The notes below the pieces were generated by a model. It made no database searches. It saw only the letters and a program-made list of their open reading frames with translations, and was not told the origin of the DNA. A stretch of 64,000 nt of DNA from Ignavibacteria bacterium (GTDB lineage Bacteria; Bacteroidota; Ignavibacteria; Tepidaquicellales; OLB5): positions 1 through 64,000 of the forward strand of contig JAFLBX010000001.1 of the NCBI GenBank assembly GCA_017303675.1, in the 5' to 3' direction. A program made the position numbers and the translations under genes. The stretch's first letter is position 1; every line of letters begins with the position of its first letter. Shown here piece after piece: positions 8,969 to 14,977 of the stretch.

Positions 8969-9268
8969 ATGCAAAATTTAAACAAAGAAAATATCATTGA
9001 ATTTATCAGGAAAAATAAGACTTTTCTGCATGATAAATATGGAGTTCTTTCAATTGGGCTTATGGGTTCATTTGCCCGTGACGAACAAAAAGCCGATAGT
9101 GATATTGACTTTATTGTAGAATTTGCTGAAGTAGATTATAGTAAACTTGTTAAAATGACCTCATTTCTTGAAGAAAAGTTCAAGACCAAAGTAGATATCA
9201 TTATTAACAATAAATACTTGAGTAAAAAGTTTAAAGATTTAAATGAAAAAGATACGATAAATGCCTAG
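8969..9268 (+). CDS. mntA: MntA-like minimal nucleotidyltransferase (antitoxin of MntA-HepT)
   Basis: A 99-residue minimal nucleotidyltransferase. The signature GS-x10-DxD is exact: G33-S34, then D45-I46-D47 (MGSFARDEQ then DSDIDFIVEF). In characterised MntA-HepT modules this enzyme AMPylates and neutralises the HepT RNase. The gene overlaps hepT by 8 nt. The order here (mntA first) is the reverse of some described pairs. Confidence 0.85.
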   Translation: MQNLNKENIIEFIRKNKTFLHDKYGVLSIGLMGSFARDEQKADSDIDFIVEFAEVDYSKLVKMTSFLEEKFKTKVDIIINNKYLSKKFKDLNEKDTINA

Positions 9269-9632
9269 CGATGCGATTATTCTCAATAAATTTGAGATAA
9301 TTAAAGGATCTGTCTTGATAATACTTGATCGATTTAAAGATGTATCAGCACCTGATGATTTTATGACAACTCCTAACGGAGTAATGAAACTCGATTCAAT
9401 AGCAATGAGATTACAGAGTATCGGGGAATCAATTAAGAAAATAGATAAGTATAGACCCGAACTTTTGAGAAATTACAATGAGATTGACTGGAATGATATT
9501 ATAAAGTTCAGAGATTTTATATCACATCATTATGATCTTGTTAATCCAGAAATGATCTATAATACCTGTAAAGAAAAGTTACCAATACTTAAAAGTACTA
9601 TTGAAAAAATAATTAACGAAAATTTTAAATAA
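9261..9632 (+). CDS. hepT: HepT-like HEPN ribonuclease toxin (DUF86)
   Basis: A 123-residue all-helical HEPN protein. The catalytic motif R-x4-H-x-Y is present as R84, H89, Y91 in KFRDFISHHYDLV, and the central MKLDSIAMRLQSIGESIKK helix is typical of DUF86. Predicted RNase toxin, controlled by AMPylation from the preceding MntA. It ends 6 nt before the acyl-CoA mutase gene, so the module and mutase probably share a transcript. Both catalytic and AMPylation-site residues appear intact. Confidence 0.85.
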   Translation: MPSDAIILNKFEIIKGSVLIILDRFKDVSAPDDFMTTPNGVMKLDSIAMRLQSIGESIKKIDKYRPELLRNYNEIDWNDIIKFRDFISHHYDLVNPEMIYNTCKEKLPILKSTIEKIINENFK

Positions 9633-9638
9633 ATATAT

Positions 9639-11321
9639 ATGTCCATCCAAAACGGAAAAAAAGCTAGTCCATTACTGAATAAGAGCGTTTCAAAAAAAGA
9701 GTGGCTCAAAACAGCTGAAGAGCTGCCGACAACTGATATGAAGTTCACTTCGCTAAGCGGTGAAGAAGTAGAGCTGTTATATACACCCGAAGATGTCAAG
9801 AACATCGATCATGATTCAGAAATAGGTTACCCGGGCGAGTTCCCCTATACACGCGGAATACACCACAACCTTTACCGCGGCAAGCTGTGGACAATGCGCC
9901 AGTTCGCCGGCTTTGGCTCACCTGAAGATACCAATGAGCGTTTTAAATACCTGCTGGCTCACGGGCAAACGGGACTTTCTACAGCATTTGATATGCCTAC
10001 ATTAATGGGGTGGGATTCAGATGATGAGCTCGCCGAAGGCGAAGTTGGAATTTGCGGTGTAGCAATTTCATCACTTGATGACATGAAGGTACTGTTCAAC
10101 GGAATTCCGCTGGATAAAGTATCAACTTCTATGACAATTAACTCACCTGCTGCAATGATGCTCGCTTTTTATCTTGGAGTAGCAGAAGAACAGGGCGTAC
10201 CTTTTGATAAGCTGCAGGGCACAATGCAGAACGATATTTTAAAAGAATACATCGCGCAGAAAGAATTCATCTATCACCCTGAGCCTTCTATGAGGATCAT
10301 TGTTGATATGATAGAATACTGCAAGGATAATGTACCCAAGTTCAATCCTGTTTCAGTCAGCGGATATCATATCCGCGAAGCTGGCTCGACCGCTGCACAG
10401 GAGCTTGCTTTCACACTGGCTGACGGCTTTGCATACATTGAAGCTTGTATTGCCCGCGGAATGGATGTTGATTCTTTCGCGCCCAGGATCTCATTTTTCT
10501 TTAATTCACATTTAGACTTCTTTGAAGAAATAGCTAAGTTCCGCGCAGCAAGAAAAATATATGCAAAACGCATGCGCAATAAATACGGCGCAAAGAATCC
10601 AAAGTCATGGACTCTTCGCTTCCACACGCAAACAGCAGGATGCTCTTTAACAGCGCAGCAGCCTGAAAACAATATTGTAAGAACAGCGATCGAAGCGCTT
10701 GCTGCTGTACTTGGCGGCACGCAGAGCCTGCACACAAACTCAATGGATGAAACACTTGCGCTTCCTTCAGATAAGGCTGTAAAAATTGCCTTAAGAACCC
10801 AGCAGATAATCGGTTATGAACACGGTGTAATTAATACAGTGGATCCGCTTGGAGGCAGCTACTATGTTGAAGCCTTGACAAAGAAAATGGAAGATGAAGC
10901 GGAAAGCTATTTTGAAAAGATCGATGCACTCGGCGGTGTAATTCCCGCTATTGAAGCAGGCTTCTTCCAGAAGGAAATAGCTGATGCTGCTTACCGCTAC
11001 CAGATGGAGCTTGATAAGAAAGAGAAAATTATCGTTGGAGTTAATGAATTTGTAGAAGAAGAAGAAAAGATAGATATCCCGATCCTTAAAATTTCAAAAG
11101 AAGTAGAACGCGTCCAGGTAAAACGCCTGCGCGAAATGAAGGCTTCCAGGAATAACGAAAAAGTGGAAGAAACTCTCGCTGCAATGGTACAGGCTGCAAA
11201 TGATAACCTGAATCTAATGCCGAGGATTCTTGACTGCGCAAGGAATCATGTAACACTTGGTGAAATGTGCAATGCTTTAAAAGAACCGTTCGGCGTTTAC
11301 GAAGAACAGGCTGTATTTTAA
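9639..11321 (+). CDS. Coenzyme B12-dependent acyl-CoA mutase large subunit, isobutyryl-CoA mutase-like
   Basis: A 560-residue TIM-barrel large subunit of the methylmalonyl-CoA mutase superfamily. It lacks the B12-binding domain, so a separate small subunit is needed and is not in the window. Visible motifs are [42 protein letters not shown] (catalytic-type H244) and [14 protein letters not shown]. Alignment by eye to methylmalonyl-CoA mutase places Phe89 and Gln207 where that enzyme has Tyr89 and Arg207, which grip the substrate carboxylate. Phe/Gln is the pattern described for isobutyryl-CoA mutase, so a carboxylate-free acyl-CoA such as isobutyryl/butyryl-CoA is the likelier substrate. Automatic naming as methylmalonyl-CoA mutase would be doubtful. 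A terminator follows. Confidence 0.85.
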
Positions 11322-11377: not shown

Positions 11378-11574
11378 ATTTTATTTTTTTTACTTAATCC
11401 CGCCTTTGAAAATTGCCGCCATAATTTAGTAGCTTCTGGTTCAGATTAACCCGCTATTAAAAATAACCGTTTTTTGCAGGTATTTCTGAATTGAATATAT
11501 CTTTCAAATGAGATACTTTTACTTTAATTATTATTGATATCTTAAATTATAGCTAAATAACAGGATAACAGCAT

Positions 11575-13128
11575 ATTATTTTACAATCATTCAAAAATAC
11601 TGATAAGCACATTTTAATAATAATTATCCTTTACATATGTTTACAGGCGGCTTATTTAATTTCGGAATATACCATCGCAGGCGGAAGTTTCGGAGCCCCG
11701 CTTGACGATGTTTGGATTCATTTCCGCTTCGCTGAAAATTTCGCACACGGATTTTTCTACCAGTATAACCCCGGTGAACCTACACCCGGTACAACTTCAC
11801 CGCTATGGGTAATTATACTTGCCGTTCCATTTCTTTTTTCACAAAACCTGATATTGCCGTACGCGCTGTTTGTAAGCTCTTTATTTTTTTTACTGGCTCT
11901 CATTCAGTTATACAAATTCTGTATTAAGCTTGGATTTGACGGAATATATTCCCTTTTAATTACACTGATAACAATGGCAGCCGGCAGGCTGCTTTGGTCG
12001 TCGCTTTCAGGAATGGAAATAACATTATTCGTATTGCTGAGCGTACTCATTATTAAAAGCCATTTAAAAGAAATAACAAACGGCAGGGTTACATTTTTAA
12101 CCGGATTATTACTTGGTATAGCAGCAAATACACGTCCTGAAACATACCTGCTTGCGGGACTATATTACCTCACAACTTTATATCTGCTGCGTAATAAATT
12201 AAAAGGAAATTCCTCCAAGCTGATTTTATCAGGCGTAATTTTTTTAATACTGTTACTGCCATATCCTTTGTTTTCGTATATGCACACCGGGGGATTCTTA
12301 CCCAATACCTATGAAGGACAGGTCGGTTCTGCGAAATACCTGCCAAACTTTACTTTTATAATTGAATCTGCTAAAATTTTCATAAAAGATAATTTCGTAA
12401 TATTTATTTTATGGGGATTAAGTGCGATATATTTTGTATACACTATAATAAAGAAAAAAGTTGAAGGTAATTTCCTTTTATTAAATCTGTGGATATTCCT
12501 GCTGCCCCTGGTTTCAGCTTTTATAGCTCCAAACTGGCGGCATCATGGCAGGTATTTGATTCCCCTAATTCCATTTATTAACATTTCTGCAATATATATA
12601 TTGCGTAAGCTGCACACTTATTACGAAGCAAAAGGTTACAGGCGTTATACCCTGTTCAGAAAAGGAACTATTGCCGTAATATTGATTGCTTCAGTTAACA
12701 GCGGTGTGCTGTTTGCCGGTGTGCTGGGATGGAACGTTGAAAATATCAACAACCAGCAGGGCAAAATTGCAGCATGGCTTAACCAAAACCTGCCCGGTGA
12801 AACTGCCTTCGGCATGAATGATATCGGGATAATTACATTCAAAACGAAGAAGTATGTAGTTGATATGGCGGGCCTGGTAACCCCGGAAGTTTTTGGCTTT
12901 CAGAAAATGAGCTATGAAGACGGCTCGAAAGCATTATTTAAATTCCTGAAAGCAAAAGGAGTGAATTATATTATAATTTACCCGGACTGGTTTGAGTATA
13001 TTATGGCAAATTATTCCGGCGCATTCACTCAGGTACACAGCCAAAAGCTTCAAAAAAATACAATATGCGGCGGCATTGAGATGTTTGTATATAAGATAAA
13101 CTGGGATAAGATATTTCCTGAAAAATAA
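11575..13128 (+). CDS. AftB-like GT-C membrane glycosyltransferase, start codon unclear
   Basis: A multi-spanning membrane protein of about 517 residues. The N-terminal segment HILIIIILYICLQAAYLI is followed by a periplasmic loop with the catalytic-type Asp-Asp pair in APLDDVWIHFRFAENFAHG and then NPGEPTPGTTSPLW. This loop pattern is shared with actinobacterial AftB-type arabinofuranosyltransferases and related GT-C enzymes using polyprenyl-phosphate sugars. About nine more hydrophobic helices follow. The only canonical start (TTG, 11854) would remove this essential motif. The frame is open from 11569 without ATG, GTG or TTG, so an ATT at 11575, 9 nt after AGGA, is my best guess. The next gene makes phosphoribosyl-polyprenol, which supports an arabinose or ribose donor. 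Confidence 0.65.
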   Translation: MILQSFKNTDKHILIIIILYICLQAAYLISEYTIAGGSFGAPLDDVWIHFRFAENFAHGFFYQYNPGEPTPGTTSPLWVIILAVPFLFSQNLILPYALFVSSLFFLLALIQLYKFCIKLGFDGIYSLLITLITMAAGRLLWSSLSGMEITLFVLLSVLIIKSHLKEITNGRVTFLTGLLLGIAANTRPETYLLAGLYYLTTLYLLRNKLKGNSSKLILSGVIFLILLLPYPLFSYMHTGGFLPNTYEGQVGSAKYLPNFTFIIESAKIFIKDNFVIFILWGLSAIYFVYTIIKKKVEGNFLLLNLWIFLLPLVSAFIAPNWRHHGRYLIPLIPFINISAIYILRKLHTYYEAKGYRRYTLFRKGTIAVILIASVNSGVLFAGVLGWNVENINNQQGKIAAWLNQNLPGETAFGMNDIGIITFKTKKYVVDMAGLVTPEVFGFQKMSYEDGSKALFKFLKAKGVNYIIIYPDWFEYIMANYSGAFTQVHSQKLQKNTICGGIEMFVYKINWDKIFPEK

Positions 13129-13162
13129 CCGGGAAAAATCATCCTGTAAGAGAACTTGATAA

Positions 13163-14083
13163 ATGATAATCCACCTTTTTAAGCTTATTCGCCCCAAACA
13201 ATGGATCAAAAACTTTTTCGTTTTTGCTCCGCTGCTTTTTTCACGTCATATATTCCACCTGGAATATTTGATACCTTCGCTTGCGGCTTTTATAATATTT
13301 TCACTTGCATCAAGCGCGGTTTATATCATAAATGATATAATGGATGTTGAAAGCGACAGGGTGCATCCAAAGAAAAAATACCGTCCTATCGCATCAGGGG
13401 AAGTAAGCGTAAAGCAGGCAATGGTTTTTCTGGTTTTGATCGTTGTAGGCATAGCTGTTGGCTTGATCTTCCAGAGACCTGTATTTTCATTTGTAATTGT
13501 TCTTTACCTTATAACAAACCTTCTGTATTCACTTAAGGTCAAATCAATTGTACTGCTTGATGTTTTTTTCATTTCGTTCGGATTTATGCTTCGTGTACTT
13601 GGCGGCGCAGCCGCTATTGGAGTATCGGTATCAAGCTGGATGATACTTACTACTATATTCATATCGCTCTTTTTGGCAATATCAAAACGGCGCAGTGAGC
13701 TCTCGCAAATTGTAAACAAAGAAAACATCGATAAGCAGCGTAAAGTATTAAAGGAATATTCTGTTGAATTTGCCGACCAGATAAACACCATCGCCGCAGC
13801 GGGAACGATTATTTCATACGCGCTGTACACAGTTTCAGAAAGAACTGTTTATACTTTCGGTACAGAAAAGCTGATATATACAACACCTTTTGTAATTTAC
13901 GGGATATTCCGATATATGTACCTGATGCACCAGAAGAATCTGGGTGAGTCTCCAACATCAATAGTCACAAAAGATATTCCCATTATACTTGATGTCATAG
14001 CGTGGTTCGTATTTTCAATACTTATCATTTACAGGCAAAACATACCGTATCTGCCGCAGCTTCTGCAGAAACTTTATCCTTAA
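13163..14083 (+). CDS. UbiA-family decaprenyl-phosphate phosphoribosyltransferase-like protein
   Basis: A 306-residue integral membrane prenyltransferase-fold enzyme. The metal/diphosphate motif is NDIMDVESDRVHPKKKYRP (N57, D58, D61, D65) followed by IASGE; the second Asp region is YSLKVKSIVLLD. The HPxKKxRPIASG pattern and the K(P)xQWIKNxFVFAPL start are typical of the branch that joins PRPP to polyprenyl phosphate (mycobacterial Rv3806c) rather than quinone prenyltransferases. The product is the precursor of polyprenyl-phospho-arabinose. It lies 34 nt downstream of an AftB-like glycosyltransferase, a pairing also seen in mycobacteria. DprE1/DprE2 epimerases are not in the window. Confidence 0.85.
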   Translation: MIIHLFKLIRPKQWIKNFFVFAPLLFSRHIFHLEYLIPSLAAFIIFSLASSAVYIINDIMDVESDRVHPKKKYRPIASGEVSVKQAMVFLVLIVVGIAVGLIFQRPVFSFVIVLYLITNLLYSLKVKSIVLLDVFFISFGFMLRVLGGAAAIGVSVSSWMILTTIFISLFLAISKRRSELSQIVNKENIDKQRKVLKEYSVEFADQINTIAAAGTIISYALYTVSERTVYTFGTEKLIYTTPFVIYGIFRYMYLMHQKNLGESPTSIVTKDIPIILDVIAWFVFSILIIYRQNIPYLPQLLQKLYP

Positions 14084-14092
14084 TAAACTGCT

Positions 14093-14977
14093 TTGAAACG
14101 ATATAAAGCAGAGCTGCTTTTATTCCTGACTGCCACTATATGGGCAGGCACTTTCCCCATAGTAAAAATTTCAATGGCTACAATTCCCCCGTTCTATTTT
14201 GTGGGAATAAGATTTTTAATTGGCGCAATACTCTTTACGCTTATATTCTTCAACAGACTTAATTTCAACTCCCCCGGCATTATTAAAGCCGGTTTGCTGC
14301 TTGGTTTTTTCCAGTTCGCGGGATTTTGCACACAAACCATCGGTATGATATACACTACTGCGTCAAACTCCGCGCTTATAACAGGCATAACAATACTGAT
14401 AGTCCCTTTTTCGCAGTATGCAGTTGTGAAAAAAAAGGTGCACATTGAAAACTGGATTGGGGTTGTTGTTGTACTTGCGGGTCTTTACCTGCTGACCCAG
14501 CCCGATGTAAAGGGACTTAATATAGGTGACCTTATCACAATGTTTTGCGCGTTTGCATGGGCATTCTACATTATTTACGTTGATGTATATACTAACAAAT
14601 ATGATATAATTACGCTGATATTTATACAGCTTTGGTTTGTTGTGATCGCCGCAGGCGGAACGGGACTCATTTTTGAGGACTTCCGAGCCATAGCATTTAC
14701 GCAGAATGAAATTTTATCATTGTTGTATATGGGTATTCTGGCAACATTTGTTACAACCATTCTGCTTAACAGGTTCCAGAAAGATACAACGCCTATACGT
14801 GCAAGTATTATATATACATGGGAGCAGCCTGCGGCGGTGCTGCTTGCAGTAATTTTCATTAACGAACATTTCTCACCCTGGCAGCTTTTAGGCGGCATCA
14901 TTATGGTTGCAGGAATATTATTTTCTGAGACATACGAGTATTTTAGATCAGGTTCTCCCTCTAAAAAGGAGAATTAG
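14093..14977 (+). CDS. EamA/DMT family transporter
   Basis: A 294-residue protein with ten predicted transmembrane helices in two EamA repeats (about residues 5-135 and 145-280). Typical motifs are TATIWAGTFPIVKI, NSALITGITILIVPF and a second-repeat IRASIIYTWEQPAAVLLAVIFINE. DMT-superfamily members export amino acids, nucleobases or other small metabolites; the substrate cannot be read from sequence. The start is TTG, 9 nt after the UbiA-like gene, so the gene is probably cotranscribed. A link to glycan precursor transport would be speculation. Confidence 0.85.
   Translation: MKRYKAELLLFLTATIWAGTFPIVKISMATIPPFYFVGIRFLIGAILFTLIFFNRLNFNSPGIIKAGLLLGFFQFAGFCTQTIGMIYTTASNSALITGITILIVPFSQYAVVKKKVHIENWIGVVVVLAGLYLLTQPDVKGLNIGDLITMFCAFAWAFYIIYVDVYTNKYDIITLIFIQLWFVVIAAGGTGLIFEDFRAIAFTQNEILSLLYMGILATFVTTILLNRFQKDTTPIRASIIYTWEQPAAVLLAVIFINEHFSPWQLLGGIIMVAGILFSETYEYFRSGSPSKKEN

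Follow-up and report, generated by a model that had tools for sequence, protein, structure and literature searches.

Probably (at roughly 60% by our own estimate), the three-gene operon analysed here is a periplasmic pentofuranosylation cassette that uses polyprenyl-phosphate-ribose, with arabinose as an optional product in the family to which the genome belongs (f1) and a surface molecule as the candidate acceptor. The window, i.e. the whole stretch of 64,000 nucleotides that was analysed, comes from a 3.65 Mb genome of an environmental Ignavibacteria bacterium; among named relatives, MAGs such as OLB5 are the closest. The operon consists of genes for a GT-C glycosyltransferase, a UbiA-family protein and an EamA transporter (Table 1), which are adjacent and run in the same direction; the EamA gene starts 9 bp downstream of UbiA. 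The linkage of the three genes is conserved in f1 and in the sister family (f2), and homologues of DprE1 and DprE2 are encoded elsewhere in the genome. The first two genes (11575–14083) had been placed correctly in the initial annotation, which missed the third and read the two as a pair for arabinose or ribose transfer.

Table 1. Coordinates in the window of the operon genes, the conserved GT-C motifs and the neighbouring mutase gene
Feature	Position	Strand	Remarks
Methylmalonyl-CoA mutase, syntenic neighbour	9639..11321	+	Regarded as outside the system
GT-C (GT-CA fold) glycosyltransferase, about 517 aa	11575..13128	+	Start non-standard, probably ATT 11575
Catalytic DD motif, D44 D45	11704..11709	+	D45 aligns to AftB D62
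RPE motif, residues 187–189	12133..12141	+	R187 aligns to AftB R221
RHHGRY, residues 322–327	12538..12555	+	R326 probably corresponds to AftB R372 (motif order only)
UbiA-family polyprenyl-phosphate phosphoribosyltransferase (predicted), 306 aa	ATG 13163..stop 14083	+	
EamA/DMT-family transporter, two EamA domains	14093..14977	+	Candidate lipid-sugar flippase

Concerning the surroundings of the operon, the methylmalonyl-CoA mutase gene is syntenic with UbiA in several families. It was rejected as a member of the system and its position attributed to conserved gene order; in family f8 the UbiA and EamA genes overlap and the mutase is absent. A gene for a HepT-like RNase toxin is located just upstream of the mutase (9261–9632). 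Promoter and terminator scans gave no more matches than expected by chance. A gene for a 5'-phosphatase was also looked for: the genome contains six PAP2 candidates, none of them in the operon or beside DprE1. Other genes accompany the operon in related genomes. Several f2 genomes, and family f17 too, carry an acylphosphatase gene 3' of EamA (L175:5660-5932, L176:8843-9121, L177:5143-5415, L190:6889-7164), and families f4, f17, f18 and f23 have a DUF362-type gene between those for UbiA and EamA (L203:8570-9718, L205:7936-9072, L206:5936-7024, L207:8781-9884).

The reading frame of the GT-C gene is open from 11569. The codon at 11575 is ATT and the first ATG, GTG or TTG in frame is the TTG at 11854; a start there would cut off the catalytic DD motif. 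In the orthologues, an ATG or a TTG stands at the equivalent position or close to it, and their N-terminal protein is conserved, so the long frame is considered real. The sequence AGGA is found about 9 bases upstream of ATT 11575, which is probably the start, a rare codon in this role. Gene callers would probably shorten the protein and lose the catalytic motif. The lack of ATG, GTG and TTG (11569–11853) is common to three genomes of the genus, with AGGA and ATT ATT in the same place. The identity of the GT-C proteins is 59–90% within f1 and mostly 37–43% at the equivalent locus in f2, and an alignment of 28 sequences has 29 invariant columns, D44 and D45 among them. Judged by its sequence, the gene is real, with conservation far beyond chance.

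No Pfam family matched the GT-C protein, and a PDB search with the single sequence gave no match. Based on a profile of the 28 GT-C orthologues, AftB is the only significant PDB match (E 7e-9, about 230 residues). The same search gave no match to ArnT or PMT, the enzyme types that the initial annotation had named as the grouping that would speak against it. D62 and R221 of AftB are essential (PMC12041299); of the catalytic set D62/R221/R372, the first two have aligned counterparts in the window protein (D45 and R187), and R326 was assigned to the third by motif order. The curated AftB model NF041481 does not match the window GT-C at E 0.1, and three of its paralogues match it weakly, far below the cut-off. 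The AlphaFold model (pLDDT 75, pTM 0.79) has the GT-CA fold and matches GT-C structures with Z scores of about 13–25, with a conserved catalytic Asp after TM1. The scores are 22–25 for OST, 22–23 for PMT, 20 for AftA, 19 for ArnT and 17.5 for AftB, and enzymes that handle hexoses or oligosaccharides are among the matches. The proposed structural check placed AftB among the matches and did not single it out; since all GT-C folds score alike, fold comparison was dropped as a discriminator between AftB and ArnT/PMT.

In the phylogenetic tree, AftB is represented by residues 61–295 only; this fragment groups with two paralogues from the same genome, GT17 (C2:43743-45242; L017:5744-7243) and GT18 (C2:810896-812896), and with the GT of a Saprospiraceae operon (L096), with a support of 0.948. 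The window GT-C falls with its orthologues into a clade of its own (support 0.98). The name 'AftB-like' given to the window protein is therefore right for the superfamily but should not be taken to mean orthology, the AftB-type proteins of this genome being GT17 and GT18. Altogether, at least four or five related GT-Cs are found in the genome. A sugar nucleotidyltransferase gene follows GT17, and two paralogues other than GT17 have TPR-like C-terminal tails (L015:5759-7744 and L018:5897-7897); relatives of the former are spread over many families of the class.

Two NCBIfam equivalog models of decaprenyl-phosphate phosphoribosyltransferase recognise the UbiA protein with scores above cut-off (NF008977: 281.6 against 234; NF008978: 222.7 against 207), and its top PDB match is Rv3806c of M. 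tuberculosis (8j8j, E 5e-38). Six of the seven residues for Mg and PRPP in Rv3806c (PMC10994848) are kept, namely K28, Y70, N73, D77, K143 and K208, and the seventh, Q135, is replaced by N. Y157 of Rv3806c is F in the window protein, a change which also occurs in some mycobacteria. The genome encodes three UbiA-family proteins, of which only the one in the window matches at 1e-20. There is thus strong family evidence for a polyprenyl-phosphate phosphoribosyltransferase, and on this point the initial annotation, which predicted a phosphoribosyl-polyprenol synthase, agrees with our results.

For the transporter, 94 genomes have positions listed for both UbiA and the protein that matches the window EamA best; the two lie within 8 kb of each other in 68 of these and are adjacent in 44. 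In family f17 the EamA gene overlaps that of DprE2. No other protein of its own genome matches the window EamA at 1e-20, which indicates that it represents a distinct group and is not merely the nearest of many. The SMR proteins ArnE/ArnF flip polyprenyl-phosphate-aminoarabinose, and SMR and DMT proteins have related folds (PMC9574504). EamA is the best flippase candidate of the operon, which makes this a plausible role; EamA transporters have many substrates. A literature search of limited coverage gave no direct report on EamA proteins as flippases for polyprenyl-phosphate-pentoses, or on the pathway in Bacteroidota/Ignavibacteria.

A search for DprE1/DprE2-like epimerases had been suggested earlier, their absence being taken as an argument against an arabinose pathway. 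That argument falls away: at C1:1.11 Mb the genome carries a DprE1 homologue, and a DprE2 homologue overlaps it. The best PDB matches of DprE1 are all DprE1 (4aut, E 3e-81) and the motifs GRSYGD, HGKNHH, QYQ and KDS are kept; the scores of the two proteins against the NCBIfam equivalogs are 416.7 (NF053785, cut-off 500) and 182.7 (NF053786, cut-off 250). The gene pair is conserved within f1, and in nearly all f1 loci a deoxyhypusine-synthase-like gene (L014:7320-8294) is located 3' of it. In the Saprospiraceae operon the order is UbiA-DprE1-GT-DprE2, and its GT is the one that groups with AftB and GT17.

The distribution of these proteins was surveyed in 294 genomes of the class, with window-type GTs counted at E 1e-30 and paralogues included. 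UbiA is found in 257 genomes, far more than contain DprE1 (98) or a window-type GT-C (73); given this reach across the class, lipid-linked ribose may have a wider, unrecognised role. In f1, 14 of 15 genomes contain DprE1, and every genome with UbiA (13 in all) has the GT-C beside it. In f2, the GT-C adjoins UbiA in 14 genomes, by coordinates, and no DprE1 was found in the 29 genomes of that family. The pair can thus function where DprE1 is missing, a pattern which, read from gene content, favours ribose as its basic donor; the contrast between f1 and f2 is a single evolutionary split. Looking at the paralogues, GT17 orthologues (67–100% identity) are present in all f1 genomes (in G002 as fragments) and none were found in f2, whereas GT18 is present in both. 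Within the order, GT17 thus appears to track DprE1, and this AftB-type paralogue is the more probable arabinose-dedicated enzyme. In family f11 (L183, L184), a GT of the window clade is clustered with divergent DprE1/DprE2 homologues, so this clade can occur with epimerases too; there, the GT and UbiA are adjacent in reversed order.

Based on these data, we infer a pathway of lipid-ribose synthesis, flipping and transfer. On the cytoplasmic side, UbiA would move phosphoribose from PRPP onto polyprenyl phosphate, the step with strong family evidence. A phosphatase would then take off the 5'-phosphate, which would give polyprenyl-phosphate-ribofuranose. Within the order, the separately encoded DprE1–DprE2 could, by homology, yield polyprenyl-phosphate-arabinofuranose in f1 only. 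EamA, as its conserved linkage suggests, would flip the lipid-sugar, and the GT-C may hand the pentofuranose on to an acceptor in the periplasm; D45 and R187/R326 are predicted by homology at the donor site, like D62/R221/R372 of AftB. The most likely donor of the GT-C is polyprenyl-phosphate-ribose, or either pentose.

A broader proposal, which we put forward tentatively and with less than even confidence, is that the GT-C founds an uncharacterised GT-C family of ribofuranosyltransferases acting with an EamA-type flippase for lipid-sugars, and that polyprenyl-phosphate-ribose is a core envelope intermediate of Ignavibacteria to which arabinose was added by the gain of DprE1/DprE2 and an AftB-type transferase. 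The arabinose reading of the initial annotation, in which UbiA, DprE1 and DprE2 make polyprenyl-phosphate-arabinofuranose and the window GT-C transfers it, seems unlikely to us. In its favour, the epimerases are encoded in the genome and in nearly all of f1, with UbiA as the sole possible substrate source for both, and it agrees with AftB as the sole PDB profile match of the GT-C and with the f11 clusters. However, the epimerases lie 1.1 Mb from the operon, the GT-C and UbiA genes stay adjacent in a family without DprE1, and, on both phyletic pattern and similarity to AftB, GT17 makes a better candidate for the arabinosyltransferase. More doubtful still is a GT-C that uses another polyprenyl-phosphate-sugar (e.g. 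a hexose) beside a UbiA that makes lipid-ribose, their adjacency being inherited gene order: the excess of UbiA over GT-C in the survey, the mutase (equally syntenic with no evident functional tie), the related GT-Cs of the genome and the fold matches to hexose and oligosaccharide enzymes are in line with it, but the two genes are adjacent in both f1 and f2 and, in reversed order, in f11, and the closest solved relative of the GT-C is a pentofuranosyltransferase.

If the preferred reading, a ribose-based pentofuranosylation cassette, is right, lipid-linked pentofuranose glycosylation (mycobacteria, Pseudomonas pili and some O antigens) would extend to a whole uncultured Gram-negative class. 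It would also point to a new, testable clade of GT-C enzymes and to an EamA-family protein as candidate flippase, flippases being the least proven step of such pathways. The families f1 and f2 would offer a natural comparison with and without DprE1, from which it could be seen which transferase takes ribose and which arabinose.

Among the known systems, the mycobacterial DPA pathway (Rv3806c, Rv3807c, DprE1/DprE2, AftB) has in common with the window genome an Rv3806c-type enzyme, DprE1/DprE2 homologues and a GT-C that is related to AftB and keeps its catalytic residues. In the window genome, however, the genes are dispersed, the GT is outside the AftB clade and the adjacent transporter belongs to the EamA family; to our knowledge, arabinogalactan is not to be expected in this organism. 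AftB itself (GT89; cryo-EM 9dlf, 9dlh) shares the DD motif, SG[ML]E and RPE with the window GT-C. The window protein differs in having GTTSPLW and PNWRHHGRYLIP in place of the VEG[YF]T or VEANT and the GGD....R of the AftB-type group, and its full-length model matches AftB no better than other GT-C folds.

The targets of such enzymes outside Actinobacteria, called largely unknown in the initial annotation, are documented in two cases, the pilins of Pseudomonas (PMC12369383) and the O antigens of Citrobacter (PMC11127046). For the acceptors that it suggested here, T9SS surface proteins or LPS, the analysis yielded no evidence in either direction. The pilin arabinosylation of Pseudomonas paraeruginosa (TfpW) likewise employs a UbiA-family enzyme together with a GT-C that handles D-arabinofuranose; its GT sits with pilin genes, unlike the window GT-C, and TfpW was likened by description only. 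In three-component systems, periplasmic addition of pentofuranoses is the joint work of a UbiA-type PPPRS, a small transporter and a GT-C, and the arabinose cases have DprE1/E2 homologues (Kelly 2024, PMC11127046). In Citrobacter youngae O1/O2, the three components are encoded together and the sugar is set by separate epimerases, as proposed here. The window UbiA differs in lacking the HAD phosphatase domain, and the window transporter has two EamA domains and probably 10 TM, compared with 4 TM in the EmrE/ArnE-like protein of Citrobacter. The epimerases are distant from the operon, the host is a member of the Ignavibacteria, and the GT was compared with GT136 of Citrobacter by description only. 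As a PPPRS, a presumed flippase and a GT-C are encoded together in the window too, the operon is best regarded as a variant, i.e. a new arrangement of the recently described three-component pentofuranose pathway with a different GT clade.
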